Below, in pieces: positions 29,348 to 53,326 of a stretch of 53,463 nucleotides of DNA. The notes under the pieces are model-generated. The model saw only the letters and a program-made list of their open reading frames with translations. It was not told the origin of the DNA and ran no database searches. Source of the stretch: Dulcicalothrix desertica PCC 7102. GTDB lineage: Bacteria > Cyanobacteriota > Cyanobacteriia > Cyanobacteriales > Nostocaceae. Within the stretch, counting starts at the first letter, position 1, and every line of letters begins with the position of its first letter. The stretch lies in assembly GCF_003991905.1 (NCBI RefSeq), contig NZ_RSCL01000044.1, positions 1-53,463 on the forward strand, in the 5' to 3' direction. A program made the translations under genes and the position numbers.

Positions 29348-30778
29348 ATGCAAAGCCAAGTCAGGAATACATCTGAAACAGCACTTATTTCTTTTGAAGT
29401 CGCCTTACAAGTTGTAAATACGGCGATAATGTCGGAGGAATCAAGACATCTGAAAAATATTGAAATAGAAGTATTACGAGGAGTTTTACAAGGTCAGAAG
29501 TACGATGAGATTGCGGCTATATGTGGATATGCTCCCGAATACATAAAAAATGATGTTGGCCCAAAACTATGGCAATCTTTGTCATCTATCTGGGGGAAGA
29601 AAGTTAGTAAAAATAATTTGATGGCTGTGTTAGCGCAGCAAGTATTTCAAGAGAAGCTACAAAATAAACCATCAACAAAATCTGAATCTCTGCTAAAAGC
29701 CATACCATGTCAGTCGAATTTTTATATAGAGCGTCCTCTCGTTGAGTCTCGCTGTTATGCAGAAATAATAAAACCAGGCGCCCTCATTCAAATCAAAGCT
29801 CCCCAACAAATGGGCAAAACTTCTTTGATGCTCAAAATTCTCGATTATGCTAGAAAAAATTCTTCTACTGCTGATAATCAAGAAGTACGTACTGTAGCAC
29901 TAAGTTTGAAGCGCGCGGATAAAGCAACTTTTAACGATTTAGATAAGTTTTTGCGTTGGTTATGTTATTCAATCACTCGCAAGCTGCAATTACCAAATCG
30001 TATAGAAGAATATTGGAATGAAAATTTTGGTAGTAAAAATAACTGCACGGCTTACTTTGAAGAGTATTTATTACCAGCAATTAATGGAACATTAGTATTA
30101 GGTTTTGATAATGTCGATGTAGTACATTTATATCCAGAAATTGCCGAAGATTTCTTTTCGCTATTAGATTCTTGGTGTGAAGAAGTGAATTATGGAGATA
30201 GTGGAAATCCTATCTGGCAAAATCTGCGATTTATTCTCGTCGATACCGAAGAGGTTTATAATTCTTTGAATACTCATGAATCATTTAATGCTGGGCTAAC
30301 AATTAAACTTCAGCCTTTTACTTCAGAACAGGTACAATGTTTAGCACAGTGCTATAAACTTCAACTGTCCCAAGACGAAACGAGGGAGCTAATGCAATTC
30401 GTTGGTGGGCATCCCTATCTAGTAAAACAGACTTTTGAACATTTAACACAGCAAAAACTTACTTTGAGTGAGTTATTACAAGTAGCCGCTACAGATACAG
30501 ATATTTATGGTCATCACCTGCAACGATATTTACGCAGTTTACAGCAGCATCCTAAATTAGCAGCAGCATATCATCAAGTAGTTAAGGCATCCTCACCAAT
30601 AGAGCTAGAAAAATCGTTAGCATTTAAACTCTGCAATATGGGGTTGGCAACACTGCAAGGAAATAAAATTGTTCCTAGTTGTGAACTATACCGTAAATTT
30701 ATTCCTTACTGGTTTCAAACTAACGAAGCAAGTCAAGACAAAGTTTATATGAGTAAAAATTTATACTTGGTTAGTTAA
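29348..30778 (+). CDS. AAA-like ATPase with N-terminal HTH (vMAP-type)
   Basis: 476 residues. The N-terminus (about 15-90) is a helical HTH-like region of the kind found in cyanobacterial vWA-MoxR-associated proteins (EIEVLRGVLQGQKYDEIAAICGY). A linker carries YIERPLVESRCYAEIIKPG before the AAA-like fold: Walker A is APQQMGKTSLM (about 152-162) and Walker B is TLVLGFDNVDVV (about 250-261). The C-terminal part continues helical (EQVQCLAQCYKLQLSQDE, MQFVGGHPYLVKQTF). Such proteins are regulatory or signalling ATPases and are not directly biosynthetic. Its position just ahead of the NRPS genes, same strand, suggests control of the cluster. The residues needed for ATP binding are present. It could also be an unrelated neighbour. 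Confidence 0.75.
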   Translation: MQSQVRNTSETALISFEVALQVVNTAIMSEESRHLKNIEIEVLRGVLQGQKYDEIAAICGYAPEYIKNDVGPKLWQSLSSIWGKKVSKNNLMAVLAQQVFQEKLQNKPSTKSESLLKAIPCQSNFYIERPLVESRCYAEIIKPGALIQIKAPQQMGKTSLMLKILDYARKNSSTADNQEVRTVALSLKRADKATFNDLDKFLRWLCYSITRKLQLPNRIEEYWNENFGSKNNCTAYFEEYLLPAINGTLVLGFDNVDVVHLYPEIAEDFFSLLDSWCEEVNYGDSGNPIWQNLRFILVDTEEVYNSLNTHESFNAGLTIKLQPFTSEQVQCLAQCYKLQLSQDETRELMQFVGGHPYLVKQTFEHLTQQKLTLSELLQVAATDTDIYGHHLQRYLRSLQQHPKLAAAYHQVVKASSPIELEKSLAFKLCNMGLATLQGNKIVPSCELYRKFIPYWFQTNEASQDKVYMSKNLYLVS

Positions 30779-31017
30779 ATTATGAGATAGTCGAATAGAA
30801 AAGAGTTGTAGCATATCTGTCCTGTGATGTGGATTCGGTCAGGCGAGGTGCCTAACCTACTTGTACAGAAAAGTTAAGTTTTGGAACTAACAATGAACAT
30901 AATTTTTCTATATCGACAAGTAAGTTTAATAGTTTTATAAATATATTAACTAAAGGAGAAAAAGCTTTGATATGTAAACCAAAATAATTTAAAAAACGAC
31001 ATAGGAGTAATGACAAA

Positions 31018-31467
31018 ATGCTAAGTTTACTTGTTAATCATAAAGACCCGCAAGTAACTGCTTTCAGCGAATTAGGCGCCGAAATATCAGAATTAGATAA
31101 ATATTGGCGAGAAGTCGCAGAAAGCACAAGACAAGAAGAGTTAGAGAAGTTGAGATGTAAACTTGAAGTAGGAGTACAAGAACTTACAGTTATAGCCAAT
31201 AAAATAAATAGCTTGGCAAATGAAATAAAAAATCTTTTGTTCACTTTTAAGGAAATTGCCGTAGAAGTAAATCGCAATTATCATTTATTACAGCAACATC
31301 TCAATTTAAAAGTAGCAAAATTAAATAAATCAAAGCGGCGCCTAATTCCTTTAAATATATGGGATGTTCATGATTTGAGTATTCCTAATGTAGTTAGACG
31401 TGGCACCAAATTTATACTAACTAAACAAATTGTAAATTTATTCCCAGCACAAGATACACAAGCATAA
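31018..31467 (+). CDS. Small coiled-coil protein of unknown function
   Basis: 149 residues. The central portion (about 20-105) is almost continuous amphipathic helix (ELGAEISELDKYWREVAEST; VIANKINSLANEIKNLLFTF), likely a coiled coil. A basic stretch follows (KLNKSKRRLIP), then a C-terminus IWDVHDLSIPNVVRRGTKF. No signal peptide, membrane segment or enzyme motif is visible. AGGAGTAATGACAAAATG gives a good ribosome site. It lies 36 bases before mbtH, so it may be co-transcribed with the NRPS cluster. I do not recognise the family. Confidence 0.6.
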   Translation: MLSLLVNHKDPQVTAFSELGAEISELDKYWREVAESTRQEELEKLRCKLEVGVQELTVIANKINSLANEIKNLLFTFKEIAVEVNRNYHLLQQHLNLKVAKLNKSKRRLIPLNIWDVHDLSIPNVVRRGTKFILTKQIVNLFPAQDTQA

Positions 31468-31503
31468 ACGTAAACAATTATTAATTCACAAATAGAGGTA
31501 ATT

Positions 31504-31722
31504 ATGAACAACGCAACACAAAACAACACAATCTATCTCGTCGTTATGAATCACGAAGAACAATATTCAATTTGGCCGAAATGGAAAAAAGAAATTCCAT
31601 TAGGCTGGAAAACCGTGGGTAAAGAAGGTTCAAAAGAAGAATGTCTGAAATATATTGAAGAAGTTTGGACAGATATGCGACCTTTGAGCTTAAGGAAAGC
31701 AATGGCAGAACAATCAGCTTAA
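31504..31722 (+). CDS. MbtH-like protein
   Basis: 72 residues with the full MbtH signature: [20 protein letters not shown], then [20 protein letters not shown], then [12 protein letters not shown]. MbtH proteins bind NRPS adenylation domains, mainly at their N-terminal subdomain, and are often needed for their folding and activity. The three conserved Trp residues are present. It is the first clearly NRPS-linked gene of the cluster. AGAGGTAATTATG gives a clear ribosome site. Confidence 0.92.
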
Positions 31723-31789
31723 AAATCAAGATTACCGACTTCTTTAAAACTTGGGTTGGTAATCTAACAATAAATTAAAAAGAGAAAGT

Positions 31790-31966: not shown

Positions 31967-31970
31967 TATT

Positions 31971-32741
31971 ATGGTAGCCGAACTAAAACGAGAATCTTGG
32001 GTAACATTTCCTAAACGAAATTATGAAGCGAGTCTACGCCTATTTTGTTTTCCTTATGCAGGTGGTAATGCAATGAGCTTTCGGGGATGGGAGAAAACTT
32101 TAGAAAAAAACTTGTTTAACACAGTTGAAGTTTGTCCTATCGAACTACCAGGACGGGGAAGTCGGTTAATGGAAGAGCCATTTACTAACTTTTCACAGTT
32201 GATTTCTAGTCTAACTCAAGCTCTTGTACCTTACTTAGACAAGCCATTTGCTTTTTTTGGTCATAGTATGGGAGCAATAGTCTGCTTTGAAGTTGCACAT
32301 TTGCTTCGTAAAAAATATTCATCGACTCCAACGCATTTATTTGTTTCTGGACGCAATGCACCTCAAGTTTCTATCGAGGTTGAACATATCCATAATTTAC
32401 CAGAACGCGCGTTTTTACAAGAATTACGGCGCCTGAATGGTACTCCCGAAGAAGTTTTAGAAAACACTGAACTGATGCAAATGCTTTTGCCGATGCTACG
32501 GGCAGATTTTGCGCTAGTTGAAAATTACGTCTATACTCCCGAATATCCACTCTTATGTTCCATTACTGCCTTTGGTGGTCAGCAAGACCCCAAAATTAGT
32601 CAGGATAGTTTACAAGCTTGGCACCAACAGACAACGGGTGACTTTTCAATGCATATGTTTCCTGGCGACCACTTCTTTATACATTCAGCACAACAACTTA
32701 TACTTCAAAACATTTCTCAAAAACTATACCAAGTAATCTAA
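31971..32741 (+). CDS. Type II thioesterase (NRPS editing)
   Basis: 256 residues, alpha/beta hydrolase fold. The N-terminal RLFCFPYAGGNAMSFRGW is the usual type II thioesterase opening. The nucleophile is Ser99 in FFGHSMGAIVCFEV. The catalytic Asp lies near FGGQQDPKI and the His is in FPGDHFFIHS. These enzymes remove wrong acyl groups from NRPS carrier domains; some also help release products. No TE domain is present in either NRPS here, so both roles are open. It lies between MbtH and the first GT32 gene, same strand. Confidence 0.88.
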   Translation: MVAELKRESWVTFPKRNYEASLRLFCFPYAGGNAMSFRGWEKTLEKNLFNTVEVCPIELPGRGSRLMEEPFTNFSQLISSLTQALVPYLDKPFAFFGHSMGAIVCFEVAHLLRKKYSSTPTHLFVSGRNAPQVSIEVEHIHNLPERAFLQELRRLNGTPEEVLENTELMQMLLPMLRADFALVENYVYTPEYPLLCSITAFGGQQDPKISQDSLQAWHQQTTGDFSMHMFPGDHFFIHSAQQLILQNISQKLYQVI

Positions 32742-32749
32742 ATATAGTT

Positions 32750-33547
32750 ATGGCTAAGATACCCAAAATTATACACCAAATTTTTTTCCAAGGTGAAACG
32801 GCTGTTCCCAAAAAATATCAAGGCTACCATGAAACGGTTATAGCACATCATCCTCATTGGGAACATTACTTTTGGGATGAAGCAAAGTCACGGACATTTA
32901 TTCAGGAGAAATATCCCTGGTTTATAGAAGTTTACGATTCTTATCCTCATCGAATTCAACGTTGTGATGCTATCCGGTATTTCATCCTTCATTACTATGG
33001 TGGATTTTATATTGATATGGATGTTGAATGCCTCAAACCTCTTGACGATTTACTTGAAGATTATGAACTAATTCTGTCAAAGCTTGTTGGCTTTAATAAT
33101 GCTATTATGGGCAGTGTTCCAAAACATCCGCTTTGGCTAAAAGTGTTTGATGAATTACAAGAGCGTAAAGATAAGTTGCCATCAAATTCAAATATTAATG
33201 CATTACTCAAAAAGTCAATGCCTTATTATGTATGTTACAGTACAGGACCAATGCTATTTGATGATTGTGTGATTGCTGGCAGTTTCCATAAATGTTCTAC
33301 TGTTCGCGTTTGTCCGGGATATATTTTTGAACCAGGGGCGCCTATGGAAATTGATGAGAAAATAATTCAGCAAAATAGTACTGAACATTCTTATACAATA
33401 CATCATATGGCTTCCCTTTGGCTTCCTCTACATCATCGGATAATAAGCGCTATTTTTAGCGTCGGGGCAAAAGTTTACTGGAATATTATTTCTTTATTTA
33501 AAAAAGTAAGGTGGGCCGAAGCCCACCGTACCCAACGCAGTAATTAG
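32750..33547 (+). CDS. GT32-family glycosyltransferase (DXD type), copy 1
   Basis: 265 residues. The N-terminal KIPKIIHQIFFQG is the family opening. The metal and sugar-nucleotide motif is GGFYIDMDVECLKPLDDLL (DMD at about 88-90), preceded by IQRCDAIRYFILHYYGG. GT32 includes Och1-type mannosyltransferases. A sugar such as mannose on a Thr-rich peptide fits the locus; the sugar itself is inferred. It starts 8 bases after the thioesterase. The last 12 residues (RWAEAHRTQRSN) come from a perfect GGTGGGC/GCCCACC hairpin and flanking repeat-like DNA. They are absent from the second copy at 43417-44169. Confidence 0.82.
   Translation: MAKIPKIIHQIFFQGETAVPKKYQGYHETVIAHHPHWEHYFWDEAKSRTFIQEKYPWFIEVYDSYPHRIQRCDAIRYFILHYYGGFYIDMDVECLKPLDDLLEDYELILSKLVGFNNAIMGSVPKHPLWLKVFDELQERKDKLPSNSNINALLKKSMPYYVCYSTGPMLFDDCVIAGSFHKCSTVRVCPGYIFEPGAPMEIDEKIIQQNSTEHSYTIHHMASLWLPLHHRIISAIFSVGAKVYWNIISLFKKVRWAEAHRTQRSN
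33510..33527. repeat. Short hairpin repeat inside the GT32 3' coding end
   Basis: GGTGGGC (33510-33516), loop CGAA, GCCCACC (33521-33527). A dispersed hairpin of this kind usually lies between genes. Here it encodes part of the C-terminus, so a repeat has probably extended the protein. It is followed by the stop at 33545-33547. Confidence 0.6.
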
Positions 33548-33559
33548 GAACAATAAAAT

Positions 33560-34489
33560 ATGAAACCATTAGAGGTTTACAATCTACACAAACAATATCA
33601 GCAAGGTAAACAATCAATACAAGCCATATCTGGTTTATCATTAAGTATCAATGCTGGAGAAATATTAGCTTTTTTAGGTGCAAACGGCGCCGGCAAGACA
33701 ACTAGTATTAAGATAATTGCAGGTTTAATTCAACCAGATACTGGATGGGTAAAAATTGCAGGCTGTAATCCTCACACCAATCCACAAGCGCTACGAATGC
33801 TTGGTACAGTTATGGAAGGAAGTCGTAATCTTTACTGGCGCCTAACTGCTGAAGAAAATCTTGAATATTTTGGTGTATTAAAAGGAATTAATAGCAGTAA
33901 GGCACGTAAACAAGCACTTAGACTGTTAGACCAGTTTGGTTTAATGCATAAACGTAAGGCGCCTGTAAAAACACTTTCACGAGGAATGCAACAGAAGCTA
34001 TCTATTGCGGTAGCTTTAGTTCACAAACCTAAGTTGCTACTATTAGATGAACCAACTTTAGGCTTGGACATGGAAGCTAGCGAAAGTGTTAAAGCTTTAG
34101 TAAGACAAATAGCATCTGAAGGCTGTGCAATATTACTGACAACCCATCAATTGGATATTGCAGAAGAAATATCAGACAGGGTAGCAATTATCCAAAAAGG
34201 TCAGATTATTACAGAAGAACCAACAAAGGAAATTATTAAGCGCTTTTCTGGTTCTAGCTATATTATTAAAGTAGAAGGTGAGCTAGATTTATTACAAATT
34301 ACAAAAATTGAAACTTTAGGTGCCATAGTAGAATCGGAACAAGAAAGAATCATTTATACTGGCACAAAAGAAGGATTATATAAAGTATTAGCCGCTTTAG
34401 AACCATTGGCTATACTACAAGTTAATCAAGACAAAGCCAACCTAACTCAAGTCTTTTTAAAATTACTAAAACAACATAGCTATGTTTGA
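33560..34489 (+). CDS. ABC-2 exporter ATPase (DrrA/CcmA-like)
   Basis: 309 residues. Walker A is LGANGAGKTTS (about 38-48), signature LSRGMQQKLSIAVAL, Walker B KLLLLDEPTLGLD, H-loop LLTTHQLD. The C-terminal region (about 230-309) is the extra domain of DrrA-type ATPases that couple to ABC-2 permeases. Overlap of 8 bases with the next gene shows the pair works together. Placement among NRPS and glycosyltransferase genes suggests export of the peptide product. Confidence 0.88.
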   Translation: MKPLEVYNLHKQYQQGKQSIQAISGLSLSINAGEILAFLGANGAGKTTSIKIIAGLIQPDTGWVKIAGCNPHTNPQALRMLGTVMEGSRNLYWRLTAEENLEYFGVLKGINSSKARKQALRLLDQFGLMHKRKAPVKTLSRGMQQKLSIAVALVHKPKLLLLDEPTLGLDMEASESVKALVRQIASEGCAILLTTHQLDIAEEISDRVAIIQKGQIITEEPTKEIIKRFSGSSYIIKVEGELDLLQITKIETLGAIVESEQERIIYTGTKEGLYKVLAALEPLAILQVNQDKANLTQVFLKLLKQHSYV

Positions 34490-35276
34490 ACTATTTCAGG
34501 CGGAATTTAAACGGATTTGGATAGAGTTTATTCGCTACCCAATTGATGCTATTAGCGGCATTATCGCTAACGCAGTCGTTTTTTATGGACTATTTTTAAG
34601 CGCTAATTACATTGCTGGTGTTTCTAATTTAAATACAAGTGAGCAAATAAACGTAGGTGAACGACTAGACGTTATCGTAATTGGCTACGTGCTTTGGATA
34701 CTCGTAGTCTTTATTGTCGGAGGTATTGCTTTTGGAATACAAGTAGAAGCTCAGACTGGAACCTTAGAACAGATATTTTTATCTCCATTCGGCACCTTAA
34801 CAGTTTTATTGATTCGTGGGATTGCAAGTTTGACGTTAAATATAACGTTTATTTTGGGAATTTTAATATTTACTATGCTGTTGACGAAACGCTACTTACA
34901 CTTTTCACCAGCTATCATCTTACCGCTATTTACAGTGTTATTAGGAGCTTATGGTTTATCCCTGATAATCGCAGCTTTAACTTTACTTTATAAACGTGTC
35001 CAGCAACTACTGGGATTAGTTCAATTTGGTCTATTTTTTCTACTAACCTTTCCCTCTGAAGTATGGGGTAAGTCTTTACTAAATTTGCGAGCAATGTTAC
35101 CAATGGCTGTAGGTTCTGATGTTCTTCGTGATTTAATGGGACGCAATGAAAATTTAGATTTATCTAGTTTCATATTTGCTTTGATGAATGGACTGGGATA
35201 TTTGATTGTAGGTATGTTAGTGTTTCGTTGGGCTGAAAGCAAAGCTAAACGTCAAGCCCTACTAAATGGGTATTAG
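34482..35276 (+). CDS. ABC-2 type exporter permease (DrrB-like)
   Basis: 264 residues with about six predicted membrane helices: around residues 18-40, 60-90, 105-130, 140-165, 175-195 and 225-250. An amphipathic N-terminus (MFELFQAEFKRIWIEF) precedes the first helix. The EAQTGTLEQIFLSPFG segment in the first cytoplasmic loop is the ABC-2 coupling region. It starts inside the last codons of its ATPase gene and ends 79 bases before the first NRPS. Expected to move the finished, perhaps glycosylated, lipopeptide across the inner membrane. Confidence 0.85.
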   Translation: MFELFQAEFKRIWIEFIRYPIDAISGIIANAVVFYGLFLSANYIAGVSNLNTSEQINVGERLDVIVIGYVLWILVVFIVGGIAFGIQVEAQTGTLEQIFLSPFGTLTVLLIRGIASLTLNITFILGILIFTMLLTKRYLHFSPAIILPLFTVLLGAYGLSLIIAALTLLYKRVQQLLGLVQFGLFFLLTFPSEVWGKSLLNLRAMLPMAVGSDVLRDLMGRNENLDLSSFIFALMNGLGYLIVGMLVFRWAESKAKRQALLNGY

Positions 35277-35355
35277 TTAGTTAATTTTCAAAGAATCAGA
35301 GCAAAGATTAATGTTCTAATAAAATACTAAATAAGCCAAAAATATACACATTGCT

Positions 35356-38300
35356 ATGAATACACAATTAGCGCTTTCTACAAATCAGTTCGATATTTAT
35401 ATTGACCAAATGAGATGGTCTGATGGTTCGCACTTTAATATCGGCGCCGTTATTACAATTACAGGAATCTTGAATAGTGGATATTTCAACCAAGCTTTAA
35501 ATCACATGGTTCGTTGCAACCCAGGTTTACGTTTCCGTATTTATGAATCTGAGGGTAAACCGTTTCAGTTTGTAGCACCACACCAAGAGCAACAATTTAA
35601 GCTAGTTGATTTTTCGGCTAATTGCTCAAACCCCGATGATGTTGAACAACTAGCTAAACGATATATCGAGAATGATTTTAATCAACCTTTTACTTTCGGG
35701 AAAGAATCTTCTCTTTGCAGCTTTCAGTTAATTAGATTAAGCAGCAAAAAATATTTATTTTATTCAAAATTTCATCATATTATTGCTGATGGTTGGGGTA
35801 CTTCGCTTGCCTTTAATGACTTGATTAATAATTACAATCAAATTATCTCTAATGTTGGATTTGAACCATTAGAGCGAAATTTGATATTTACTGATTATCT
35901 TCAAGAAGAATCTGCGTATCGACAGTCTCAGAATTTTGAAAGTGATATAAAATACTGGACTCAGCGTTTAGAAAATGTCAGTCCTCAGATTTTTGCGTCA
36001 ATGCATAAACCTCAACTGCTTGGCGCCCGTAAAGCAATTTATATTAAACGCGAACATTATAATCGAGTTGAAGCTGTTTGTAAAGAAATCCAATCAAATC
36101 CATTTCATTTTATCCTTTCTATTGTATTTATTTATTTAAGCAAGCGTTATCGACAAAATGATTTAGTCATTGGTCTACCAATTTTAAACCGGAGCAAAAA
36201 GGTTTATAAAGACACAGTTGGACTATTTATCAGTATGCTGCCGTTTCGGACGGAAATTAATAATAACGAAACCTTTACTGATATTTTAACGACAGTCCGC
36301 ACTTTATTAAAACAAGATTATCGCCATCAACGCTTACCTCTGGGAGAAATGAAGCGTATTGCCAATTTAGATTTAGACTCAGAAAACTATCAAAATCTAT
36401 TTGATCTTACCCTCTCTTACGAAAAACATGACTATAGTGAGCATTTTGAGCAAACTGAAACAATTTGTGAACCTCTCTACAGTGGTCAACAAAAAACTCC
36501 TCTCGCAATATATGTACGAGAGTTTGATAATCAAAGCGACGTTAAAATAGATTTTGATTATAATCTCTCTTACCTTGATGCTGAAACTATTGAAGAAATA
36601 GTTACACATTTTCAAAAGCTTTTTGATGACGCTTTAGAAAACTTAGAGCAAAATCTAGATAAACCTATTTCTCAACTGTCGCTTATTGAACCAGAAATAT
36701 ATTGGCGCCTAACTCAAGAATCTTTAAATAGTACTAAATTATTACCGACATCAGAAACATTAGTTTCAGTTTTTGAGGAAATTGTTAGCAAGTATCCTCA
36801 GCATATTGCGGTTAAATGCGAAAATACTAAGCTAACATACGCAGAACTAAATCGAAGGGCAAATGTTCTTGCTCATCACTTACAACAACTTGGCATCAAA
36901 CCAGAAACACGAGTAGCTTTATGTCTGGAACGCTCAGAACATATGGTTGTTGCTATACTGGGAGTCTTAAAAGCCGGGGGTACTTATGTTCCCTTAGATC
37001 TTAATTATCCTGCCTCACGTCTAGAATTTATTCTCGAAGATAGCTGTGCTTCCTTATTAATTATCGAATCTTCTAGTTGCCAATTAATTTCTACTAATAT
37101 AAATGTATTGAAATGGGAATCTATTTGGGGCAAGATTCAAAATGACGCTAATCCATCTTCCCCACAAGTATCACTGCACCCTCAACATCCAGCATATATT
37201 ATCTATACCAGTGGTTCGACGGGAACTCCAAAAGGTTGTGTGGTTACTCATGGTAACGTTATGCGCTTAATGCGTTCTACAGAACCTTGGTTTGGCTTCA
37301 ATGCTTTTGATGTATGGACACTGTTTCACTCTTTTGCATTTGATTTTTCTGTTTGGGAATTGTGGGGAGCATTACTTTATGGTGGTAAGGTCGTTATTGT
37401 ACCGTTTTGGTTGAGTCGTTCTCCCGAAGCTTTCCGTGAGCTTCTTACCAAAGAAAACGTCACTGTTCTAAGTCAAACCCCTTCTGCATTTGGGCAAATT
37501 ATCCGCGCGGATAAAACAAGTACGGGTGAATTGGCATTACGATATGTAATTTTTGGTGGCGAAGCTTTAAATTTAGAAAGTTTGCGTCCTTGGTTTGAGC
37601 GACACTCAGATCAAACTCCCCGTTTGGTAAATATGTATGGTATTACAGAAACAACTGTCCATGTTACCTATCGTCCAATTACTTTTAAAGACTTGACGGT
37701 AAATACTGGTAGTGTCATTGGTGAGACAATTCCTGACCTTCGTATATACTTGCTTGATGAAAATCTCGAACCAGTACCTACTGGATGGACGGGGGAAATT
37801 TTTGTAGCAGGCGCCGGAGTTGCGCGCGGTTATTTTAATCGTCCTGGCTTAACTGCTGAACGTTTTATTCCCAACCCTTTTGGTAAAGGTAGACTTTATC
37901 GCAGTGGTGATTTGGGACGGTGGACAAAAGATGGTGATTTAGAGTACTTAGGAAGAATAGATAATCAAGTAAAAATACGTGGCTTTCGGATCGAGTTAGG
38001 AGAAATTCAGGCGCCTCTGGCATCGCATCCACAATTAGAAGAAGCTTTTGTAACTACCTATGGTGAAGGTGAAGACAAACGTATTGTAGCTTATTATGTA
38101 AGCAAACAACCACCTAGTACTAGTGAATTAAATGAGTATTTGCAGTCCCGGCTTCCTAATTATATGATTCCTACGGCATATATTAGCCTGGATGCCTTTC
38201 CTCTCACAGTTAACGGTAAAATCAATACTTCATCTTTACCGAAACCCAACTTTAATCTATCGCGACACTCTCAATATGTAAGTCCCCAAAATTTACAGCA

Positions 38301-41787: not shown

Positions 41788-41802
41788 CAATTTTGCGGAA
41801 TT

Positions 41803-42093: not shown

Positions 42094-42366
42094 TTCGAGG
42101 TTTTGTGTGTACACCGTAGCCACAAGGTGGGGATGGATAGCAACAAAAACTAGGGGGATAGCGAACTAAACAGATTTAAACTAACCTACTTAATAAATTC
42201 CCTAACTTTCCCTAACTTATATAAGTTGATTGTATTGAGTTTAATCAATAAAGTGAGATGTAAATACAACACGGTTAAAAAATTAAATCCCCCTCGACGC
42301 GCGCGGTGCTAGTGGGGCTAAAAGCACTATATTCTTCGCACAAAAATATTTACAAGGTCAAAAATC

Positions 42367-43221: not shown

Positions 43222-43265
43222 GTTTGTAGTTAGTCAAATGACTTTTGACTTCCAAAGTAGCGGTA

Positions 43266-43373
43266 CTAGTAGTCCGTGTCATAAGTTTTGGAGTGTTGCA
43301 TAAAAATCAAAATCTTGTAGAGACGCGATAGGGAGCGTCTCTACACTCCAGAATTAATGACACAGACCACTAG
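43266..43373. repeat. MITE-like element with nested GTAGAGACG hairpin
   Basis: Outer arms (43266-43296 and 43343-43373) pair over 31 bases with several mismatches, ending CTAGT/ACTAG. Inside, GTAGAGACG and CGTCTCTAC form the common cyanobacterial hairpin. It is 108 bases, in the gap between GT2 and GT32 copy 2. The same GTAGAGACG family appears inside the second NRPS gene. Confidence 0.7.
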
Positions 43374-43416
43374 TCAGGACTGAACAACATTACATTATTG
43401 TCGGATAGTCTAAATT

Positions 43417-44169: not shown

Positions 44170-44233
44170 TAACGAATAAATTACGCACTATCGCCAAATT
44201 TTATTAGTAAATAATAACTCATTTAAATAAATT

Positions 44234-47200
44234 ATGGAAGTCTATATATTACCTCTTTCTCGCTCACAAAAAAGACTTTGGTATCAAGAAATTATCAATC
44301 CTGATAATAATGCTTTTAATATTCCCATTGCTTTACGCTTACATGGCGAACTTAATCAACTAGCTCTCGAAAACGCTTTTCAAACAATTATCAGGCGCCA
44401 CGAAATTCTGCGGACAAGTTTTGCTACAGAAGATGGTGAGCCAGTACAAATTATCTACCCAGAAATCGAGTTTACTTTAGAGTCTAAAATACTAGAATCT
44501 GAATCGGAACTAGTTACAGAGTCTCGCAAACCTTTTAATCTCGTTAAAGGTTCTTTAATTCGAGCAATATTGTATAAAATTCAACCTCAAGAACATATTT
44601 TGTTCGTGAATATGCATCACATTATCAGTGATGGTTGGTCTTTGGGAGTGTTTTTCAAGGAGCTTTGCCTTTGTTACAATGCGTATATAAGCGGCGCCGA
44701 AATTTCTTTACCAGAGCTACCAATACAATATGGTGATTATGCGGAATGGCAAGAAAATTGGCTACAGGAACCAGAAATTAAAAATCAATTTGAATATTGG
44801 AAAACCCAACTGGCTGATTTACCTCCAGCTTTAAATTTACCTTTGGACTATTCCCGTCCTATACAGCAAACTTGGAATGGAGCTACGGTACGCACACAAA
44901 TACCTCATAAAGTTTATCAATCTTTAGAAGAACTCGCCAGGTCTGAAGGCGCCACTTTTTTCATGGTAGCGTTGGCTTTATTCCAAGTTTTACTGTTTCG
45001 TTATTCTGGTCAAACTGACATTATTGTTGGCAGTCCCATTGCTAACCGTAGACAAAGCGAACTTGATAATTTGATTGGTTTCTTTGTCAACACATTAGCA
45101 TTGCGGGGAGACATGGAAGGAAACCCTTCTTTACGTGAGTTATTGCGTCGCGTTCGCAAAACTTGTTTAGAAGCATATGCTCATCAAGATGTACCTTTTG
45201 AAACGCTTGTTGAGCAACTCGAAGCTAAACGTGACCCTAGTCGTTCTCCTATTTTTCAAACGCTATTTGCCCTCCAAAATGCACCTTTAGATTCTATTCA
45301 GTTATCTGGACTGACTGTAAATCCTATATTTCTTGATAACGGTGGCGCCAAATTTGATTTAACTTTAATGCTTGAGCCATCTGGAAGCAATTGGTCAGCG
45401 ATACTAGAATATAATACTGATTTATTTACACCACAAACAGCGCAATTCATACTTAAGCATTATTGTCAACTGCTTGCCTCAGCAGTGGCTGACCCAAATG
45501 TTGGTATAAATACTTTACCTTTATTAGACGAAAACGAACGTCAGGAACTTATATCTAAGGGAGTTGCAACGGCGCCTATCAATGAGCAAACAGCAAATGA
45601 AAATATAGTTTCTTTATTCGCCAAAACTGCCCATACTTACAGTGATGCAATTGCAGTTAAATATCAAGACCAAGAATTAACATACTTTGAACTTGACGAA
45701 CGCTCAAACCAACTAGCATATTTTCTACGAGAACAGGGTGTTGGGAAAGAAATACGTGTAGGTATTTTTCTAAATCGCAGCCATGAGCTAATTGTCTCAT
45801 TACTCGCTGTTTTAAAAGCAGGCGGAACTTATGTACCTCTTGACCCGGCATATCCCAGCGAACGAATAAACTTTATCTTAGAAGATAGCGGTATTTCTAT
45901 ACTGCTGACAGAAAAAGCTTTGCTCTCTTCTGTGAATACTACTAGCCAGCAAGTGGTGACATTAGAAGATATAAAAGATACAGCCCAAAACCATGTAGAG
46001 ACGTTACATGTAACGTCTCTACATTCTTCGCAGGCGGCATATATTATTTATACCAGTGGTTCTACAGGAAAACCCAAGGGTTGTGTGGTCACTCACAGCA
46101 ACGTTACCCGATTGATGCGTTCTACAGAATCTTGGTTTAATTTTAACGAGAATGATGTTTGGACACTTTTCCACTCTTTTGCTTTTGATTTTTCTGTATG
46201 GGAAATTTGGGGCGCCTTACTTTATGGAGGTAAGTTAGTTGTTGTCGATTATTTGGAGAGTCGTTCGACTGCCGAATTCCGCGAACTTTTGTACCAAGAA
46301 GGCGTTACAGTTCTTAATCAAACACCTTCTGCTTTTCGTCAACTTATTCGTGCAGACCAAGAAACCGATAACTTTTTAGGGTTACGAGTAGTAATTTTTG
46401 GTGGAGAAGCTTTAGAACTACAAAGTTTACGTCCTTGGTTTGAACGTTACGGAGACGAGCAACCAAGGTTAATTAATATGTACGGCATTACAGAAACAAC
46501 CGTACATGTTACTTACCGTCCCATCACACTTTTAGATATTCAGCAAAATCGGGGCAGCGTTATTGGTGTACCTATCCCTGATTTATCACTATACATTTTA
46601 GATGAATCACTTCAACCAACTCCCTTGGGCGCCCCTGGTGAAATTTATGTTGGTGGGATGGGTGTATCTAGAGGGTACCTTAACCGTCCAGAACTTACAG
46701 CCCAACGTTTTATTCCTGACCCATATAGCAGCACCGGAGCTAGAATTTATCGTACTGGCGATATTGCCCGACGTTTACCGAATGGAGATATAGAGTATTT
46801 GGGACGCAGTGACCATCAAGTAAAAGTGCGTGGTTTTCGGATTGAGCTTGGTGAGATAGAATCTGCTTTGGTTTCGATTCCAGAAGTAACAGAAGCTGTT
46901 GTATTAACACATGGTGATGAAGCAGATAAACGTCTTGTGGCTTATATTGTCGCTAGTAATAAGTTTGTAGAACGCAGTTATTTACGAAATGTTCTCAAAC
47001 AGCATTTGCCTGAATATATGATACCGTCAGCGTTTCTTTTTCTAGATGTAATACCGCTGACGAACCAAGGTAAGATTAACCGTGCAGCTTTACTTGCCCA
47101 AGATTGGAGTGATTTTACTACTCAACGGCTTTTAGTTTTACCACAAACACCTGCTGAAAAAGTTATCTGCCAAGTATGGGAAACTGTGTTAGGCATTGAT

Positions 47201-50200
47201 GCTGTTAGTGTGGAAGATAATTTCTTTGAACTTGGTGGTGATTCGATTTTGGCTTTAAAGGTAGTAGCAGAATTACGGCGCCAAAATTTGATGCTAAGTC
47301 CAAAGGATATTTTTAGACTACAGACTGTTAGAGAACTTGCAGGCGCCGCCAAACAGTTACAATCAGAAGTGACAAGTATTGAAAAAGCTGTAGGAGAAGC
47401 ACCTCTAAGTCCAATTCAAAATTGGTTTTTTGAACTAAATATACCAAATCCTCACCATTGGAATCAAGCAGTACTTTTACAAGTTAATAAATTCTTTGAC
47501 TCACAAATTATTCAACAAGCTCTAAACACCGTCGTCGCACATCACGATATTTTCCGAGTACGCTTTTACCAAGAAGAAGGGGTATGGCACCAGTTTTATA
47601 ATGAGAACGAGTCAGCTTTTGGTTTTGAAATTGTTGATTTAACACTTTTAGATGAGATACAGCAAAACGCGACGATTAAAGAAACTTGCGCGCGTTTACA
47701 ACAATCTCTAGACTTAAATAATGGTCCCCTTGCCCGTGCAGCATTATTTAAAGGTAAAATCGGCAAATATCCAGATCAACTTTTCATCGTTTTCCATCAC
47801 CTAATTATTGACGGTGTTTCTTGGCGCATTTTACTTGAAGATATAGCAGGCGCCATGAGTTATATTAGTGCGGGTAAACCTGTTATACTTTCACAACGAA
47901 CTTCATCTTTTAAGCATTGGAGCGAGTTTCTTAATTCAATCGCCAAATCCCCAGCAATTGAGTCAGAAAAGCAGTTTTGGCTAAATATGCTCGAATCGAG
48001 CCAATCTAAATTACCATTAGATTTTTCTAATCCAACACTTCAATTGCAAAATATCGAGTCTTCGGTCAAAACTAGTTCAGTATTTTTGACCCAAGTAGAA
48101 ACAGATATATTACTTACCAAAGCCAACAAAGCTTACCACACTCAACCCCAAGAATTATTACTAGCTGCTGTTGCCAAAACTATCAGTAAAATTACCACAG
48201 ATAATAAAGTTAAAATCATCATGGAGGGGCACGGCAGGGAAGATATATCAAGCGAATTAGATATTACTCGCACTATTGGATGGTTTACAACGCTGTATCC
48301 TTTATGTCTTAATTTACCATCTAGTACTGTTGATAGCTTAAGTACCCAAAACTTAATTACAAGTGTTAAAGAACAAGCTCGTTCAGTACCTCAGCATGGT
48401 TTAGGTTATGGAATTTTAAGATATCTACAAGACAGTAATACAGAACTAGTTCACTCTCCTGCTGATATCAGTTTTAATTACTTGGGTCAAGTTCGTAACC
48501 AAACCGGGGATAATAATTTCTTTAATTTGTTAAACGAAGATACCCAACCCTCACACGACCCCAATGGATTAAGACCACATTTAATTGATATTATTTGTAT
48601 TGTCGTTGAAGGACAGTTACGTGTTGATTGGTTGTACAGCACTAATTTACATCTGGAAGAGACAATTGTTAAGTGGAGTGTTGAGTTCCGTCAAAATTTA
48701 CTAGAAATTCTGGCACATTGTACCCAACCAGGTGTAGGAACATATACAGAGTCAGATTTTCCGTTAGTATGCTTGAATCAATCTCGCCTTTCACAGTTAC
48801 AGACACAATATCCCAACTTAGAAGATATCTATCCTCTTTCGCCATTACAGGAGGGAATGCTTTTCCACTCTGTATATGCTCCAGATGATAGTGTTTATTT
48901 TGAGCAAGTAACAGGTAAAATTACAGGTCAATTAGATACTTCAGCTTTTGCTGTCGCTTGGCAAAGCGTTGTAGATAGACACCAAATTCTCCGTAGTGCA
49001 TTTGTTTGGGAACAAGAAGTACCAATTCAAGTTGTCAATAATTCTGTCGAGTTTACTATTTTAGAAAAAGACTGGCGCCATTTATCACAAGCAGAACAAC
49101 TAGCTCAATTAGACTCATATTTAGCTAGTGACCGTAAACAGGGTTTTGATCTGGGTAAAGCTTTATTAATGCGTTTTGTCATCATCCGTTTGGATGAATA
49201 TAATTGGCAATGGATTTGGAGTCACCATCATATACTTCTGGATGGTTGGTCTATTTCGATAATTTTTAAAGAAGTGCTAGAAATTTACCACTCCCAACTT
49301 CAGGGTGTTCAGCATAATCTTTCCCCAATTATACCTTACCGCGCGTATATTCAATGGTTGGCAGAGCGTAACTATGAAGATGCAGAAGAATTTTGGCGTT
49401 CTCAGTTAGCAGGTATTTCGGAACCTACCTTAATATCATGGAAACCACAAGAAAATATTGAAACCTCAACTCATAATAAAAATGATTATGAAGCGATAGA
49501 ATTACGTTTGAGTGATGAAGACTTTGCCAACTTGCTCAACATGGCTCAAAATCATCGGCTTACACTCAACACTTTAGCACAAGCAGCATGGGCACTACTT
49601 TTACAAAAATATGGCGCCGCCCGAAACGAGTGCAATGATGTATTATTTGGCGCCACTGTTTCTGGTCGTATACCAGAAATAGTTGGGGTAGAAAACATGA
49701 TAGGGTTATTCATCAATACTCTTCCCATGCGAATATCTTTAAATCCAAGTGTAACTGTAAAAGACTGGCTAGAAGAAATTCAACAGCGTCAGGTTCAAAT
49801 GCAAGAGTATCAATACAGCAAGCTCACAGATATTCGTGATAGCATTGAATTTCCGGCTGGAGAATCTTTGTTTGAAAGTATTTTAGTGTTTGAAAATTAT
49901 CCTACTGACCAGTCATTAAAAAATCAGGGTAAGGGAATTGAAGTTTCGCATATCGAGTTTCATGAAAAAACTAATTACCCTCTAACTGTTGCTTTTATTC
50001 CCGATACTGGGCTGTTATTAAAGCTCAATTACGAAACACAGTTATTATCTGACGAAGCAGCAAAAACGATGCTGCAACGCTTGCAATATCTCTTGTTAGA
50101 ACTAGCTAAAAATCCAGAGGTTCTATTAGGAGAAATAGCGTTGGTTGAGAACCTCTCCCCCGACCCCTCTGAGTTTAATTGGAAAGATTTTCATGCGGCT

Positions 50201-53200
50201 CATCAATTATTTGAACGACAAGCAGATTTAGACCCAAATGCAACTGCCTTAGTTTTTGGCGCCAATTCTATTACTTATGGGGAATTAGAGCGTAAATCTA
50301 ACATACTTGCGAATATCTTGAAATCAAAAGGTGTTAGTTATGAATCTTTAGTAGGGTTATACTTTGAACCCTCAATTGATTTTATCGTTGCCTTATTGGC
50401 TGTACTAAAAGCTGGAGGAGCATTTCTCCCATTAGACATTGCACATCCTGAAGAACGTTTGCAAGTTATTTTAGAGGATAGTCAAGTTAGTTTAATTTTA
50501 GCTACAGAAGCTATTGCCTTTAAACATAACCATGAATCGCATCAAGTTATTAGCTTATCAGAAATTGACTGGACACAACATAATACTTCCCGGCGCCTAA
50601 ACCTGAATATCAACTCATCCCATTTGGCATACGTAATTTACACCTCCGGTTCTACAGGAAAACCCAAAGGTGTTCTCGTAACCCATGCGGGAGTTCAAAA
50701 CCTTGTTGAAGCTCAAACAACAACTTTTGGTGTCACAAAACAAAGTCGAATTTACCAGTTTGCCTCGCTTAACTTTGATGCGGCAGTTTCAGAGATTTTT
50801 ATGGCATTAGGCAGCGGTGCAACTTTATATATGGCGCCTGCATCCAACCGTTTTCCAGGTTCAGAACTTTGGTCTACTTTAACCGCATGGAAAATTACCC
50901 ATTTAACCCTGGTGCCATCCGTACTAGCAACAATCAAACCAGAGGAACTGCCAACATTAGAAACTTTAATTGTGGCAGGAGAAGCTGCTTCTGGTAACAT
51001 TTTAAGACGCTGGGGTAAACAATGTCGAGTTTTTAACGCTTATGGGCCAACAGAAGCAACCGTCTGCGCGAGTATGATGGATTGTTCTAATTTAATTGGT
51101 GAACCAAGTATTGGGCAGGGTATGAAAAATAGCAAAATATACCTGCTTAATGAGTATTTTCAACCAGTGCCACCAGGTATACCAGGAGAAATTTATATCG
51201 ATGCAATTGGTTTAGCGCGCGGTTATTTAAATCGACCTGAGTTAACAGCGTCTGCTTTTATTCCTCATCCTTTTGCCAAAGAACCTGGAACACGGCTTTA
51301 CCGCACCGGAGACACTGGTGTTTACGATTCCAATGGTCATATTTATTTTCTGGGTCGGCAAGATAACCGAGTTAAATTGCATGGGTATCGTATCGAACTA
51401 GGCGAAATCGAAGCTGCTTTAGTAAAAAATCCAGCCGTAAACTCTGCTGTGGTACTATTACGAGAAGATACACCTGGGCGCCCGCGACTCGTAGCATACG
51501 TTATAACATCAACAGTAGAGGTAACTTCTCACTCACTACTTGATGATTTATCTCAAGTGCTTCCGTCCTATATGCTCCCAAGTGCAATAGTATTTGTCAA
51601 AGAATGGAGTTTAACTCCAAATGGAAAAATCGACCGCAAAGCACTGAAGGCGCCTGAAATACCAACTGTACAATTATCAACAGTAGCAGCCAGTGAAACA
51701 GAAAAGATACTGTGCAAAATTTGGGCTGAAGTACTGGGTATAGAAACAGTAAACCCAAATGATAACTTTTTTGAGATGGGTGGCGACTCGATAATTACCT
51801 TGCAAATTGTCTCCCGCGCGCGCGAAGCTGGGTTAGATATAAGTCCAAAAGACATCTTTGAAACTAAAACCCTAGCTTCTTTAGCAGCGAGAGCTAAAGC
51901 ATTGCGTACTTCATCAATAGAAGTTGACTCAGCTAACTCAGGAAAAGTACCTCTTGCCCCTATTCAACATTGGTTCTTTGAGCGAAACTTACCACACTCT
52001 CACCAATGGAACCAAATAGTAGCTGTAAGTACTAACCAATTATTGGACATTAACGTTTTTGCAACTGCTTTAGAAACTGTAGTAGCTCATCACGATGCTT
52101 TTCGATTAAGATATGAAGCTCCTGACGGCATATGGCAACAATCATATACCGATTCAGCCCCGATTAAATTACGTATCGAGGACTTTAGTAGCTACTGCAA
52201 GAGTGAACAAGAAAAAGTCTTAGCTGATATTGCAGAACAAGAACAAGCCTTAATAAATCTAAACAATTCCCCCTTACTAAGAGTTGTTTACGCCAAAAAT
52301 CTAGAAGAACATGGCGATGTGATAATATTCTTTGCTCATCACCTAATAATCGATGGAGTATCTTGGCGAATAATCTTTGAAGATTTAAACCAAGCTTACC
52401 ATCAAGCTGAGAAAGGCAAATTTATTTCACTCCCAGCCAAAAGTTCATCTTACAGACAATGGACAACAAGCTTAGAAAAACTAGCAAATTCGCCAATAAT
52501 TGAAAAAGACCTTCAATTTTGGCAAACACAATCATATCCAACAACTTTACCTTTAGATAATATCGGTAATGGCGCCAACACAGTCGAAAGCTTAGTAATA
52601 GAATCTTCGCAACTCTCAGCCCAAGAAACCTCATCTCTTCTTTTAGAAGCAACTGTAGCTTACCATGCTGGTGTACAAGAAATTTTGCTAGCAGCATTAC
52701 TCAAAACCTTTACAGAAAACCACGAATCTAATATACTGATTGACTTAGAAGGACATGGGCGAGAAGATTTAGGAAGCGAGTTAGATATTACAAAAACAGT
52801 CGGATGGTTTACCTCGCTTTATCCTGTTGTTTTGCAAAAACCCCAAGAAAATCAGTTAGAGAACTACCTTAAGGAAGTTAAAAACCAAATTCGCGCTATT
52901 CCCCATCATGGTATAAGTTATGGATTACTCCGTTACTTAAACAAGAATCAAATTACACGTGAAACACTAGCAAATTTACATAAACCGCAAATCAGTTTCA
53001 ACTATCTGGGACAAATTGATAACCAAAATAGCAACAATCTTTTTAGTCTCAGCAATGTTCCTACAGGTTCAGGAATGTTTGGTAAACAGGAACGTCCCCA
53101 TCTTCTAGCTGTAAACGCTCGTATTCAAGATGAACGTTTATTCGTTGACTGGTCTTACAGCAAAAATATACATGGCGCCCAAACCATAAAAAACTTGGCA

Positions 53201-53326
53201 GAAAATTACTTGCGTAATTTGGGCGCCTATTTAGTTAATCCAGCATCTTGTTATACTAGTAGCGATTTTAATTTAGTTGAATTAACCGATAGCGAACTAG
53301 ATTCTCTCTTAGAAGACTTAGAGTGA
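44234..53326 (+). CDS. hasO: NRPS, two modules each with epimerisation: C-A-T-E-C-A-T-E (HasO-like)
   Basis: 3030 residues. C3 (about 1-440) has an intact HHIISDGWS. A3 (about 455-955) reads D-F-W-N-I-G-M-V-H, a Thr code. T3 has Ser1004. E1 (about 1055-1500) has FHHLIIDGVSWR and MEGHGRED. C4 (about 1520-1950) opens YPLSPLQEGMLFHS, the type that follows epimerisation. A4 (about 1990-2470) reads about D-A-S-T-I-A-A-V-C, an aromatic (Tyr/Phe) code. T4 has Ser2519. E2 (about 2575-3020) has HHLIIDGVSWR and LEGHGRED. Product: D-Thr then D-Tyr/Phe, matching positions 3 and 4 of hassallidins. No release domain; another NRPS must follow. An exact palindrome inside A3 (45993-46024) inserts about ten residues in frame. 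The symbol is inferred. Confidence 0.85.
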   Translation: MEVYILPLSRSQKRLWYQEIINPDNNAFNIPIALRLHGELNQLALENAFQTIIRRHEILRTSFATEDGEPVQIIYPEIEFTLESKILESESELVTESRKPFNLVKGSLIRAILYKIQPQEHILFVNMHHIISDGWSLGVFFKELCLCYNAYISGAEISLPELPIQYGDYAEWQENWLQEPEIKNQFEYWKTQLADLPPALNLPLDYSRPIQQTWNGATVRTQIPHKVYQSLEELARSEGATFFMVALALFQVLLFRYSGQTDIIVGSPIANRRQSELDNLIGFFVNTLALRGDMEGNPSLRELLRRVRKTCLEAYAHQDVPFETLVEQLEAKRDPSRSPIFQTLFALQNAPLDSIQLSGLTVNPIFLDNGGAKFDLTLMLEPSGSNWSAILEYNTDLFTPQTAQFILKHYCQLLASAVADPNVGINTLPLLDENERQELISKGVATAPINEQTANENIVSLFAKTAHTYSDAIAVKYQDQELTYFELDERSNQLAYFLREQGVGKEIRVGIFLNRSHELIVSLLAVLKAGGTYVPLDPAYPSERINFILEDSGISILLTEKALLSSVNTTSQQVVTLEDIKDTAQNHVETLHVTSLHSSQAAYIIYTSGSTGKPKGCVVTHSNVTRLMRSTESWFNFNENDVWTLFHSFAFDFSVWEIWGALLYGGKLVVVDYLESRSTAEFRELLYQEGVTVLNQTPSAFRQLIRADQETDNFLGLRVVIFGGEALELQSLRPWFERYGDEQPRLINMYGITETTVHVTYRPITLLDIQQNRGSVIGVPIPDLSLYILDESLQPTPLGAPGEIYVGGMGVSRGYLNRPELTAQRFIPDPYSSTGARIYRTGDIARRLPNGDIEYLGRSDHQVKVRGFRIELGEIESALVSIPEVTEAVVLTHGDEADKRLVAYIVASNKFVERSYLRNVLKQHLPEYMIPSAFLFLDVIPLTNQGKINRAALLAQDWSDFTTQRLLVLPQTPAEKVICQVWETVLGIDAVSVEDNFFELGGDSILALKVVAELRRQNLMLSPKDIFRLQTVRELAGAAKQLQSEVTSIEKAVGEAPLSPIQNWFFELNIPNPHHWNQAVLLQVNKFFDSQIIQQALNTVVAHHDIFRVRFYQEEGVWHQFYNENESAFGFEIVDLTLLDEIQQNATIKETCARLQQSLDLNNGPLARAALFKGKIGKYPDQLFIVFHHLIIDGVSWRILLEDIAGAMSYISAGKPVILSQRTSSFKHWSEFLNSIAKSPAIESEKQFWLNMLESSQSKLPLDFSNPTLQLQNIESSVKTSSVFLTQVETDILLTKANKAYHTQPQELLLAAVAKTISKITTDNKVKIIMEGHGREDISSELDITRTIGWFTTLYPLCLNLPSSTVDSLSTQNLITSVKEQARSVPQHGLGYGILRYLQDSNTELVHSPADISFNYLGQVRNQTGDNNFFNLLNEDTQPSHDPNGLRPHLIDIICIVVEGQLRVDWLYSTNLHLEETIVKWSVEFRQNLLEILAHCTQPGVGTYTESDFPLVCLNQSRLSQLQTQYPNLEDIYPLSPLQEGMLFHSVYAPDDSVYFEQVTGKITGQLDTSAFAVAWQSVVDRHQILRSAFVWEQEVPIQVVNNSVEFTILEKDWRHLSQAEQLAQLDSYLASDRKQGFDLGKALLMRFVIIRLDEYNWQWIWSHHHILLDGWSISIIFKEVLEIYHSQLQGVQHNLSPIIPYRAYIQWLAERNYEDAEEFWRSQLAGISEPTLISWKPQENIETSTHNKNDYEAIELRLSDEDFANLLNMAQNHRLTLNTLAQAAWALLLQKYGAARNECNDVLFGATVSGRIPEIVGVENMIGLFINTLPMRISLNPSVTVKDWLEEIQQRQVQMQEYQYSKLTDIRDSIEFPAGESLFESILVFENYPTDQSLKNQGKGIEVSHIEFHEKTNYPLTVAFIPDTGLLLKLNYETQLLSDEAAKTMLQRLQYLLLELAKNPEVLLGEIALVENLSPDPSEFNWKDFHAAHQLFERQADLDPNATALVFGANSITYGELERKSNILANILKSKGVSYESLVGLYFEPSIDFIVALLAVLKAGGAFLPLDIAHPEERLQVILEDSQVSLILATEAIAFKHNHESHQVISLSEIDWTQHNTSRRLNLNINSSHLAYVIYTSGSTGKPKGVLVTHAGVQNLVEAQTTTFGVTKQSRIYQFASLNFDAAVSEIFMALGSGATLYMAPASNRFPGSELWSTLTAWKITHLTLVPSVLATIKPEELPTLETLIVAGEAASGNILRRWGKQCRVFNAYGPTEATVCASMMDCSNLIGEPSIGQGMKNSKIYLLNEYFQPVPPGIPGEIYIDAIGLARGYLNRPELTASAFIPHPFAKEPGTRLYRTGDTGVYDSNGHIYFLGRQDNRVKLHGYRIELGEIEAALVKNPAVNSAVVLLREDTPGRPRLVAYVITSTVEVTSHSLLDDLSQVLPSYMLPSAIVFVKEWSLTPNGKIDRKALKAPEIPTVQLSTVAASETEKILCKIWAEVLGIETVNPNDNFFEMGGDSIITLQIVSRAREAGLDISPKDIFETKTLASLAARAKALRTSSIEVDSANSGKVPLAPIQHWFFERNLPHSHQWNQIVAVSTNQLLDINVFATALETVVAHHDAFRLRYEAPDGIWQQSYTDSAPIKLRIEDFSSYCKSEQEKVLADIAEQEQALINLNNSPLLRVVYAKNLEEHGDVIIFFAHHLIIDGVSWRIIFEDLNQAYHQAEKGKFISLPAKSSSYRQWTTSLEKLANSPIIEKDLQFWQTQSYPTTLPLDNIGNGANTVESLVIESSQLSAQETSSLLLEATVAYHAGVQEILLAALLKTFTENHESNILIDLEGHGREDLGSELDITKTVGWFTSLYPVVLQKPQENQLENYLKEVKNQIRAIPHHGISYGLLRYLNKNQITRETLANLHKPQISFNYLGQIDNQNSNNLFSLSNVPTGSGMFGKQERPHLLAVNARIQDERLFVDWSYSKNIHGAQTIKNLAENYLRNLGAYLVNPASCYTSSDFNLVELTDSELDSLLEDLE
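45993..46024. repeat. 32-base perfect palindrome inside the NRPS2 A domain
   Basis: ATGTAGAGACGTTACA and its complement run from 45993 to 46024, a perfect inverted repeat of the GTAGAGACG family usually found between genes. Here it is in frame, coding HVETLHVTSLH before AAYIIYTSGSTG. It lies in a variable linker upstream of the ATP-binding loop, so the domain should tolerate it. Confidence 0.8.

Follow-up and report, generated by a model that had tools for sequence, protein, structure and literature searches.

Hassallidin synthetases comprise nine modules (PMC5834425), and the hassallidin skeleton has been given as Dht1-Thr2-cyclo-[Thr3-Thr4-D-Tyr5-Dhb6-Gln7-Gly8-Me-Thr9-Gln10] (PMC10608164), in which position 10 varies, being Gln in hassallidin C and Tyr in hassallidin D (PMC5706043). 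The membrane activity of hassallidins is sterol-dependent (PMC12473245), and a cluster on plasmid 1 of Aulosira laxa NIES-50 has been named hassallidin (PMC8600333). Enduracididine has been described in actinobacterial peptides and as an intermediate of guanitoxin; in Sphaerospermopsis torques-reginae, GntB adds a hydroxyl group to arginine, and the hydroxylated arginine is converted by GntC to cyclic L-enduracididine (PMC10367076). The stretch analysed in this study, referred to as the window, is the whole of contig NZ_RSCL01000044.1 (C44; 53,463 nucleotides), one contig of the 11,419,637-base draft genome (109 contigs) of the filamentous cyanobacterium Dulcicalothrix desertica PCC 7102. It holds part of a nonribosomal peptide synthetase (NRPS) cluster that is almost certainly of the hassallidin type, split by a repeat over C44 and a second contig, C36. 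The predicted product is a hassallidin with L-enduracididine at position 10, the ninth residue loaded, a reading to which I assign a probability of roughly 0.7.

If the two contigs are joined as argued below, nine modules are distributed over four NRPSs in a 2+2+3+2 arrangement (C, condensation; A, adenylation; T, thiolation; E, epimerisation; MT, N-methyltransferase; TE, thioesterase), and the open reading frames (ORFs) of NRPS-A and NRPS-B are both intact:

Window 35356 to 41787, plus strand: NRPS-A, 2143 aa, presumably HasN-like; starter C, A1 (Thr), T, C, A2 (Thr), T.
Window 44234 to 53326, plus strand: NRPS-B, 3030 aa, presumably HasO-like; C, A3 (Thr), T, E, C, A4 (Tyr), T, E.
C36 83471 to 72699, reverse strand: NRPS-V, 3590 aa; C-A-T-C-A-T-E-C-A-T.
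C36 72456 to 64018, reverse strand: NRPS-Y, 2812 aa; C-A-MT-T-C-A-T-TE.

All A-domain codes reported here were derived from alignments, a motif-based reading having erred on several Gln, Gly, A1, A4 and A9 codes. Codes A1 to A4 are DFWSIGMVHK, DFWNIGMVHK, DFWNIGMVHK (followed by E) and DASTIAAVCK (followed by E). Taking the first three codes to stand for Thr and the last for Tyr, the window NRPSs are read as specifying Thr, Thr, D-Thr and D-Tyr, which bears out the original prediction, made from the letters of the window, of a Thr/Ser-like, Thr, D-Thr, D-aromatic order. Codes A5 to A8 are DFWNIGMVHK, DAWQFGLIDK (with E), DILQFGVIWK and DFWNIGMVHK (with the N-methyltransferase), and modules 5 to 8 thus read as Thr (as Dhb precursor), D-Gln, Gly and N-methyl-Thr. 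Residues 2 to 9 match the published skeleton (PMC10608164) by codes together with E and MT domains, Dhb being read as its Thr precursor only. The original prediction had expected Dhb-Gln-Gly-MeThr-Gln from the later modules; the first four of these residues stood and the fifth did not, the A9 code being DGAEVAEVSK and not a Gln code. Judged by its code, residue 10 would be neither Gln nor Tyr. Since this position already varies among hassallidins, the label hassallidin-like holds, with an altered last residue.

A tree of 49 C and E domains from the genome of the window, Aulosira, Nostoc sp. UHCC 0926, Scytonematopsis contorta HA4267-MV1 and one fragment of genome G083 grouped the domains by position, with the C5 of Nostoc, which fell in the C7 clade, as the sole exception. 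At each of 12 positions the domains of the window's genome and of the published Aulosira cluster fell together. With regard to dedicated genes for attaching a dihydroxy fatty acid, the starter C domain and the short-chain dehydrogenase/reductase (SDR) are orthologous to those of related clusters, and among the cluster genes examined there was no stand-alone acyl-AMP ligase, the rest of the genome not having been searched for one. As side observations, the Nostoc sp. UHCC 0926 cluster (plasmid pn1, L134 and L150) has a Gly-like module 5 (DILQFGFIWK), a place taken by Thr (Dhb) in the other three, with DAWSIGAVCK in module 4 and DVADVGEVSK in module 9; the 1.04-Mb plasmid record lists no genes there, and the cluster is perhaps an undescribed hassallidin-type variant.

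NRPS-B ends in an E domain, so the chain must be handed on, and the missing right half of the cluster is very probably contig C36 (85,935 bases), judging from sequence overlap and module order. The window ends in a repeat:

Window 53338 to 53460, no strand assigned: MITE-like repeat (miniature inverted-repeat transposable element), ends GGGACTTCC and GGAAGTCCC, TTA flanks, inner inverted repeat; read directly.

This element had at least 79 matches in the genome among the matches listed (40 of 472 candidates scored), and is the probable cause of the assembly break within the cluster. The two contigs have an exact overlap, in that the final 80 bases of the window (53384 to 53463) are identical to the first 80 of the C36 reverse strand. 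The original prediction had suggested looking for contigs with HasV/HasY-like NRPSs that begin in the same MITE; its proposal that the window holds the left part of a hassallidin-like cluster was supported by C36 and by the C-domain grouping. Between the contig start and NRPS-V, the C36 reverse strand has ~2.4 kb with only short ORFs (<=116 aa). Support for the join comes from the overlap, from module logic (NRPS-B terminates in E without release, and the first C domain of NRPS-V groups with those that follow E) and from S. contorta, which has all parts on one contig, its NRPS-B being split into two ORFs at the second condensation domain (L135 and L136, G195 C43:113562-122904). Alternatively, the window and C36 could be halves of two different clusters: the repeat has many genomic copies, and the first 80 bases of the window are identical to its last 80, so that C44 could close on itself and the join is not unique from the sequence. 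Given the module logic and the S. contorta arrangement, two unrelated halves are very improbable. Proteins of C44 and C36 are also given the same longest contig of 2,189,268 bases in the protein database, which weakly supports the join; for unlinked contigs this would happen by chance in about one case in five, by estimate. A megablast search with window positions 35356 to 44234 against plasmids gave no match.

The ninth A domain sets this cluster apart. Its code, DGAEVAEVSK, differs from the Gln code DAWQFGLIDK of Aulosira at eight of the nine positions read, with D235 alone in common, while S. contorta has DGADAAEVSK. The best solved relative of the A9 core was ApnA A1 with 322 bits, the next single domain reaching 136. 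ApnA A1 is an Arg/Tyr-activating domain of anabaenopeptin synthesis. In the A9 code, positions 278 and 322 are both acidic, 301 is Ala, and 239 is not acidic. Arginine codes that have Asp278 and Gly301 have been listed together with one code for enduracididine, DAEDVAAMIK (PMC12283262); the latter shares with the A9 code the acid at 278, A301 and, except in S. contorta, V299, and does not share the acid at 239. The pocket fits a cyclic guanidine and in itself proves nothing.

Three genes lie downstream of NRPS-Y on the same strand of C36, in the order gntB-gntC-SDR, the first two being homologues of GntB and GntC. The GntB-like protein scored 411.5 bits with the NCBIfam model NF041365, against a curated cut-off of 380, and the GntC-like protein had the same residue as GntC (8fft) in 213 of 364 aligned columns (59%). 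Of the GntC residues named in excerpts of PMC10367076 (E9, S25, S26, N52, T84, F108, D186, Y189, K219, R227, H250 and R346), 11 of 12 are kept. The GntC-like protein falls in a different part of the GntC tree than the guanitoxin GntC. Three histidine motifs, HEAAH, HVDNH and HLDHH, presumably the metal-binding boxes, are present in the GntB-like protein. An initial Pfam reading of the two genes as an aminotransferase and a 'desaturase' for fatty-acid tailoring was dropped once NCBIfam gave GntC and GntB.

GntA (NF041366) had no match in the genome of the window or in those of the three other carriers introduced below, which is why gntB-gntC is not taken as a sign of guanitoxin here and guanitoxin production was rejected. 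Among eight other genomes only G197 had a GntA match, beside its own gntB-gntC; in a control with 14 well-known genomes, two had matches, both under the cut-off. gntB-gntC also occurs away from hassallidin-type synthetases, in G197, G120, G357 and G314. In G197 C1 (L195), a hassallidin-type NRPS-Y with a Gln code at 4.44 Mb is not adjacent to gntA-gntB-gntC at 3.54 Mb. The NRPS near the G120 pair has dissimilar codes, and the fetched stretches around the pairs of G357 C35 and G314 C81 (L211 to L214; G314 partly masked) contained no A domain, with no GntA match in either genome. Enduracididine may have further uses.

NRPS-Y orthologues were then compared with regard to both traits. In 217 genomes of the family, 14 loci had at least 65% identity, followed by a gap down to 53%, and 388 genomes drawn from the order added one NRPS-Y outside the family (G290), which together with the Aulosira plasmid makes 16 hassallidin-type synthetases. 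Because of the gap, eight NRPS loci at 52-53% from the family and ten from the order search (G020 being in both) were left uncounted. Matches to gntC were found in six of the 217 family genomes at 1e-60 and in six of the 388 order genomes at 1e-90, four of the latter being family genomes, that of the window included. Directly after NRPS-Y, gntB, gntC and the SDR gene occur in 4 of the 16 loci (the window's genome, S. contorta C43, G083 and G179), and the code DGA[DE][VA]AEVSK was present in all four of these and in none of the other 12 (Fisher one-sided 0.00055, assuming independent loci). The 12 other module 9 codes are Gln-like in nine cases, and otherwise DVADVGEVSK, DAPIVVEVWK and DAFWLGGTFK. 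As an aside, G112 (L191) has DFGNIGMVHK in module 8 and DPWQFGLINK in module 9, unlike the other Y proteins with W239 in module 8 and the other Gln-type ones with A236 in module 9.

On a tree of NRPS-Y without the A9 core, the adjacent gntB-gntC required three changes, all forced by starred branches, and on a tree of the A9 core two, so the trait agrees better with the core than with the backbone. Both features differ within two sister pairs: G179 has gntB-gntC and the code, which are both lacking at the second S. contorta locus; S. contorta C43 likewise has gntB-gntC and the code, and Nostoc sp. UHCC 0926 has no gntC at 1e-60 and a different code. This second S. contorta NRPS-Y (L196, G195 C48:59900-72900) has no adjacent gntB-gntC and reads DAFWLGGTFK in module 9. 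In steps of 40 residues, NRPS-Y was 12-45% identical to the Gln-type proteins of Aulosira, G197 and G290 over about residues 2121 to 2280, with lowest values of 12-17%, as opposed to 42-88% in the other steps between 1881 and 2560; over the same ~2121 to 2280, identity to G083 and S. contorta was 57-82%. This local drop looks like an exchange of the A-domain core in NRPS-Y.

Several observations weigh against enduracididine as residue 10 and against the covariation as its support. The GntC-like protein scored 401.8 bits with NF041364, under the NCBIfam cut-off of 415, as did those of the other three carriers (396, 407.5 and 406.2 bits), and its one changed residue is Ser26, replaced by Gly, a Gly shared by 46 of the 56 rows compared for GntC. 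For the whole A9 domain, linear gramicidin synthase A came first (697 bits, in two stretches), ahead of ApnA A1 at 598, and the A9 code equals no arginine or enduracididine code in the excerpts of PMC12283262. The Fisher value overstates the case, as the 16 loci are not independent. Shuffled labels gave three or fewer changes on the synthetase tree in 147 of 500 runs, and as few as two on the A9-core tree in 15 of 500. The absence of gntB-gntC beside the Aulosira cluster covers 87 kb of the plasmid only.

Some of these points would suit an ordinary hassallidin, with Gln, Tyr or some other common residue loaded by A9, and with gntB-gntC placed there by chance and retained through descent. The carriers number only four and in part share their descent, known hassallidins vary at position 10 (PMC5706043), module 9 codes vary over the 16 synthetases, and label shuffling on the synthetase tree performed equally well in 147 of 500 runs. 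Against this stand the code, so unlike that for Gln, and the two sister pairs that differ in both gntB-gntC and module 9, the difference between S. contorta C43 and Nostoc being confined in module 9 to few pocket positions; an ordinary hassallidin is accordingly improbable. Somewhat less so, and still unlikely, is that module 9 loads plain L-arginine to give an arginine-hassallidin, with the enduracididine from GntB and GntC serving something else. The likeness of the A9 core to ApnA A1, with its Arg/Tyr activity, would suit arginine, as would the related DVADVGEVSK of Nostoc sp. UHCC 0926, whose genome (G151) has no gntC at the threshold given. Yet gntB-gntC immediately follows NRPS-Y in four of four carriers, and among the 16 synthetases the code occurs only alongside the pair. 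The carriers moreover differ from the Nostoc pocket at 236 (G, against V) and 301 (A, against G), and A301 is shared with the enduracididine code in the excerpts of PMC12283262.

Under the preferred reading, that of an enduracididine-hassallidin, NRPS-A, -B, -V and -Y would build fatty acyl-Thr-[Thr-D-Thr-D-Tyr-Dhb-D-Gln-Gly-N-methyl-Thr-X]. The GntB-like membrane hydroxylase would convert free L-arginine to gamma-hydroxyarginine, which the GntC-like PLP (pyridoxal phosphate) enzyme would cyclise to free L-enduracididine, and the ninth A domain, its core exchanged for one near a known arginine-type domain, would load this as X. The thioesterase would then close the ring on Thr3, the glycosyltransferases could add up to three sugars, and the ABC pair would export the product.

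The conserved part of the cluster in the window runs from 31018 to 53326, with every gene on the plus strand, and besides the NRPSs and the repeat contains the following:

31018 to 31467, plus strand: 149-aa protein, no assigned function; homologues beside MbtH and/or thioesterase in three related clusters.
31504 to 31722, plus strand: MbtH-like protein (PF03621, 77.1 bits, cut-off 27).
31971 to 32741, plus strand: type II thioesterase (PF00975, 177 bits; 62-77% in three related clusters).
32750 to 33547, plus strand: GT32-type glycosyltransferase 1 (PF04488; 60-76% in four related clusters).
33560 to 34489, plus strand: ABC exporter ATPase (PF00005; 61-77% in four related clusters).
34482 to 35276, plus strand: ABC-2 type exporter permease (PF12698, weak, 26.5 bits against a cut-off of 31.6).
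42367 to 43221, plus strand: GT2 glycosyltransferase (PF00535; 68% to S. contorta, 51% to Aulosira).
43417 to 44169, plus strand: GT32-type glycosyltransferase 2 (PF04488; 65% to an S. contorta protein).

The original prediction had listed MbtH, a type II thioesterase, an ABC-2 exporter and three glycosyltransferases, all of which were recovered with Pfam, the permease by a weak match below the cut-off. It had let the cluster begin at 29348; this held from 31018 onwards, and the AAA_35 gene at 29348 to 30778, for which BLASTP gave no match in any other cluster or contig compared, was dropped as a member and is probably a neighbour. The original prediction had expected that gene set and order may differ from known has clusters; the gene order differs from that of Aulosira. 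The 149-aa protein had no Pfam match, and was 39%, 42% and 51% identical to its homologues in Nostoc sp. UHCC 0926, S. contorta and G083. The ATPase is DrrA-like, under the DrrA cut-off. The permease was 51-77% identical to those of four related hassallidin-type clusters and 51-56% to proteins in contigs of G041, G058 and G093, which were fetched for the permease, gave no A-domain code and were excluded from all counts. NRPS-A was 59-64% identical end to end to its counterparts in three related clusters. For the S. contorta match of the second GT32-type protein, the longest contig equals in size the one bearing the second hassallidin-type NRPS-Y of that strain.

Among the open-licence papers searched, none mentions both enduracididine and hassallidin, and the GntB/GntC paper contains no mention of hassallidin (PMC10367076). 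I lean towards a wider picture in which a cationic, enduracididine-bearing hassallidin family exists in at least four cyanobacterial genera (those of the four carriers), gntB-gntC and the matching A-domain core being gained and lost together, so that gntB-gntC would act as a portable supplier of peptide synthetases besides its part in a toxin pathway, with enduracididine at the ring-closing position of a sterol-dependent antifungal. If true, a rare cyclic arginine would form part of an antifungal from cyanobacteria, the GntB-GntC route would serve a second biological purpose, and a positive charge at residue 10 could alter the sterol-dependent membrane activity of hassallidins. The Gln, Arg-like and enduracididine-like forms of module 9 would also provide a matched natural set within one orthologous line for following how an A-domain core changes with substrate supply.

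Compared with known systems, the cluster is close to that of Aulosira laxa NIES-50, with which it shares four NRPSs with nine modules, the same C/E order, the same or nearly the same codes for residues 2 to 9, the N-methyltransferase of module 8, glycosyltransferases, the ABC exporter, MbtH and the SDR. It differs from it in the module 9 code, in having gntB-gntC after NRPS-Y and in having two GT32 and one GT2 glycosyltransferases, while polyketide synthase genes lie beside the Aulosira cluster and there were none among the genes examined here. The Aulosira cluster was the one compared by sequence; the has clusters of Anabaena SYKE748A, C. raciborskii and Planktothrix serta are drawn on here through published descriptions. 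With S. contorta HA4267-MV1 (L073, G195 C43) the likeness extends to the NRPSs (64-65%), the gntB-gntC-SDR order and the module 9 code, but there NRPS-A and -B lie on the opposite strand and the GT2 gene adjoins NRPS-Y. The guanitoxin pathway of Sphaerospermopsis torques-reginae ITEP-024 resembles the pair described here in its GntB, by score and histidine motifs, and in its GntC, by overall identity and named residues, whereas here the pair adjoins an NRPS in a genome without a GntA match, with a GntC below the cut-off and elsewhere in the tree. As in teixobactin, enduracidin and mannopeptimycin, a peptide synthetase would incorporate a cyclic guanidine amino acid; mannopeptimycin uses MppP, MppQ and MppR for this (PMC10367076), whereas the cyanobacterial route would consist of a hydroxylase and a PLP cyclase and would supply a glycosylated lipopeptide.

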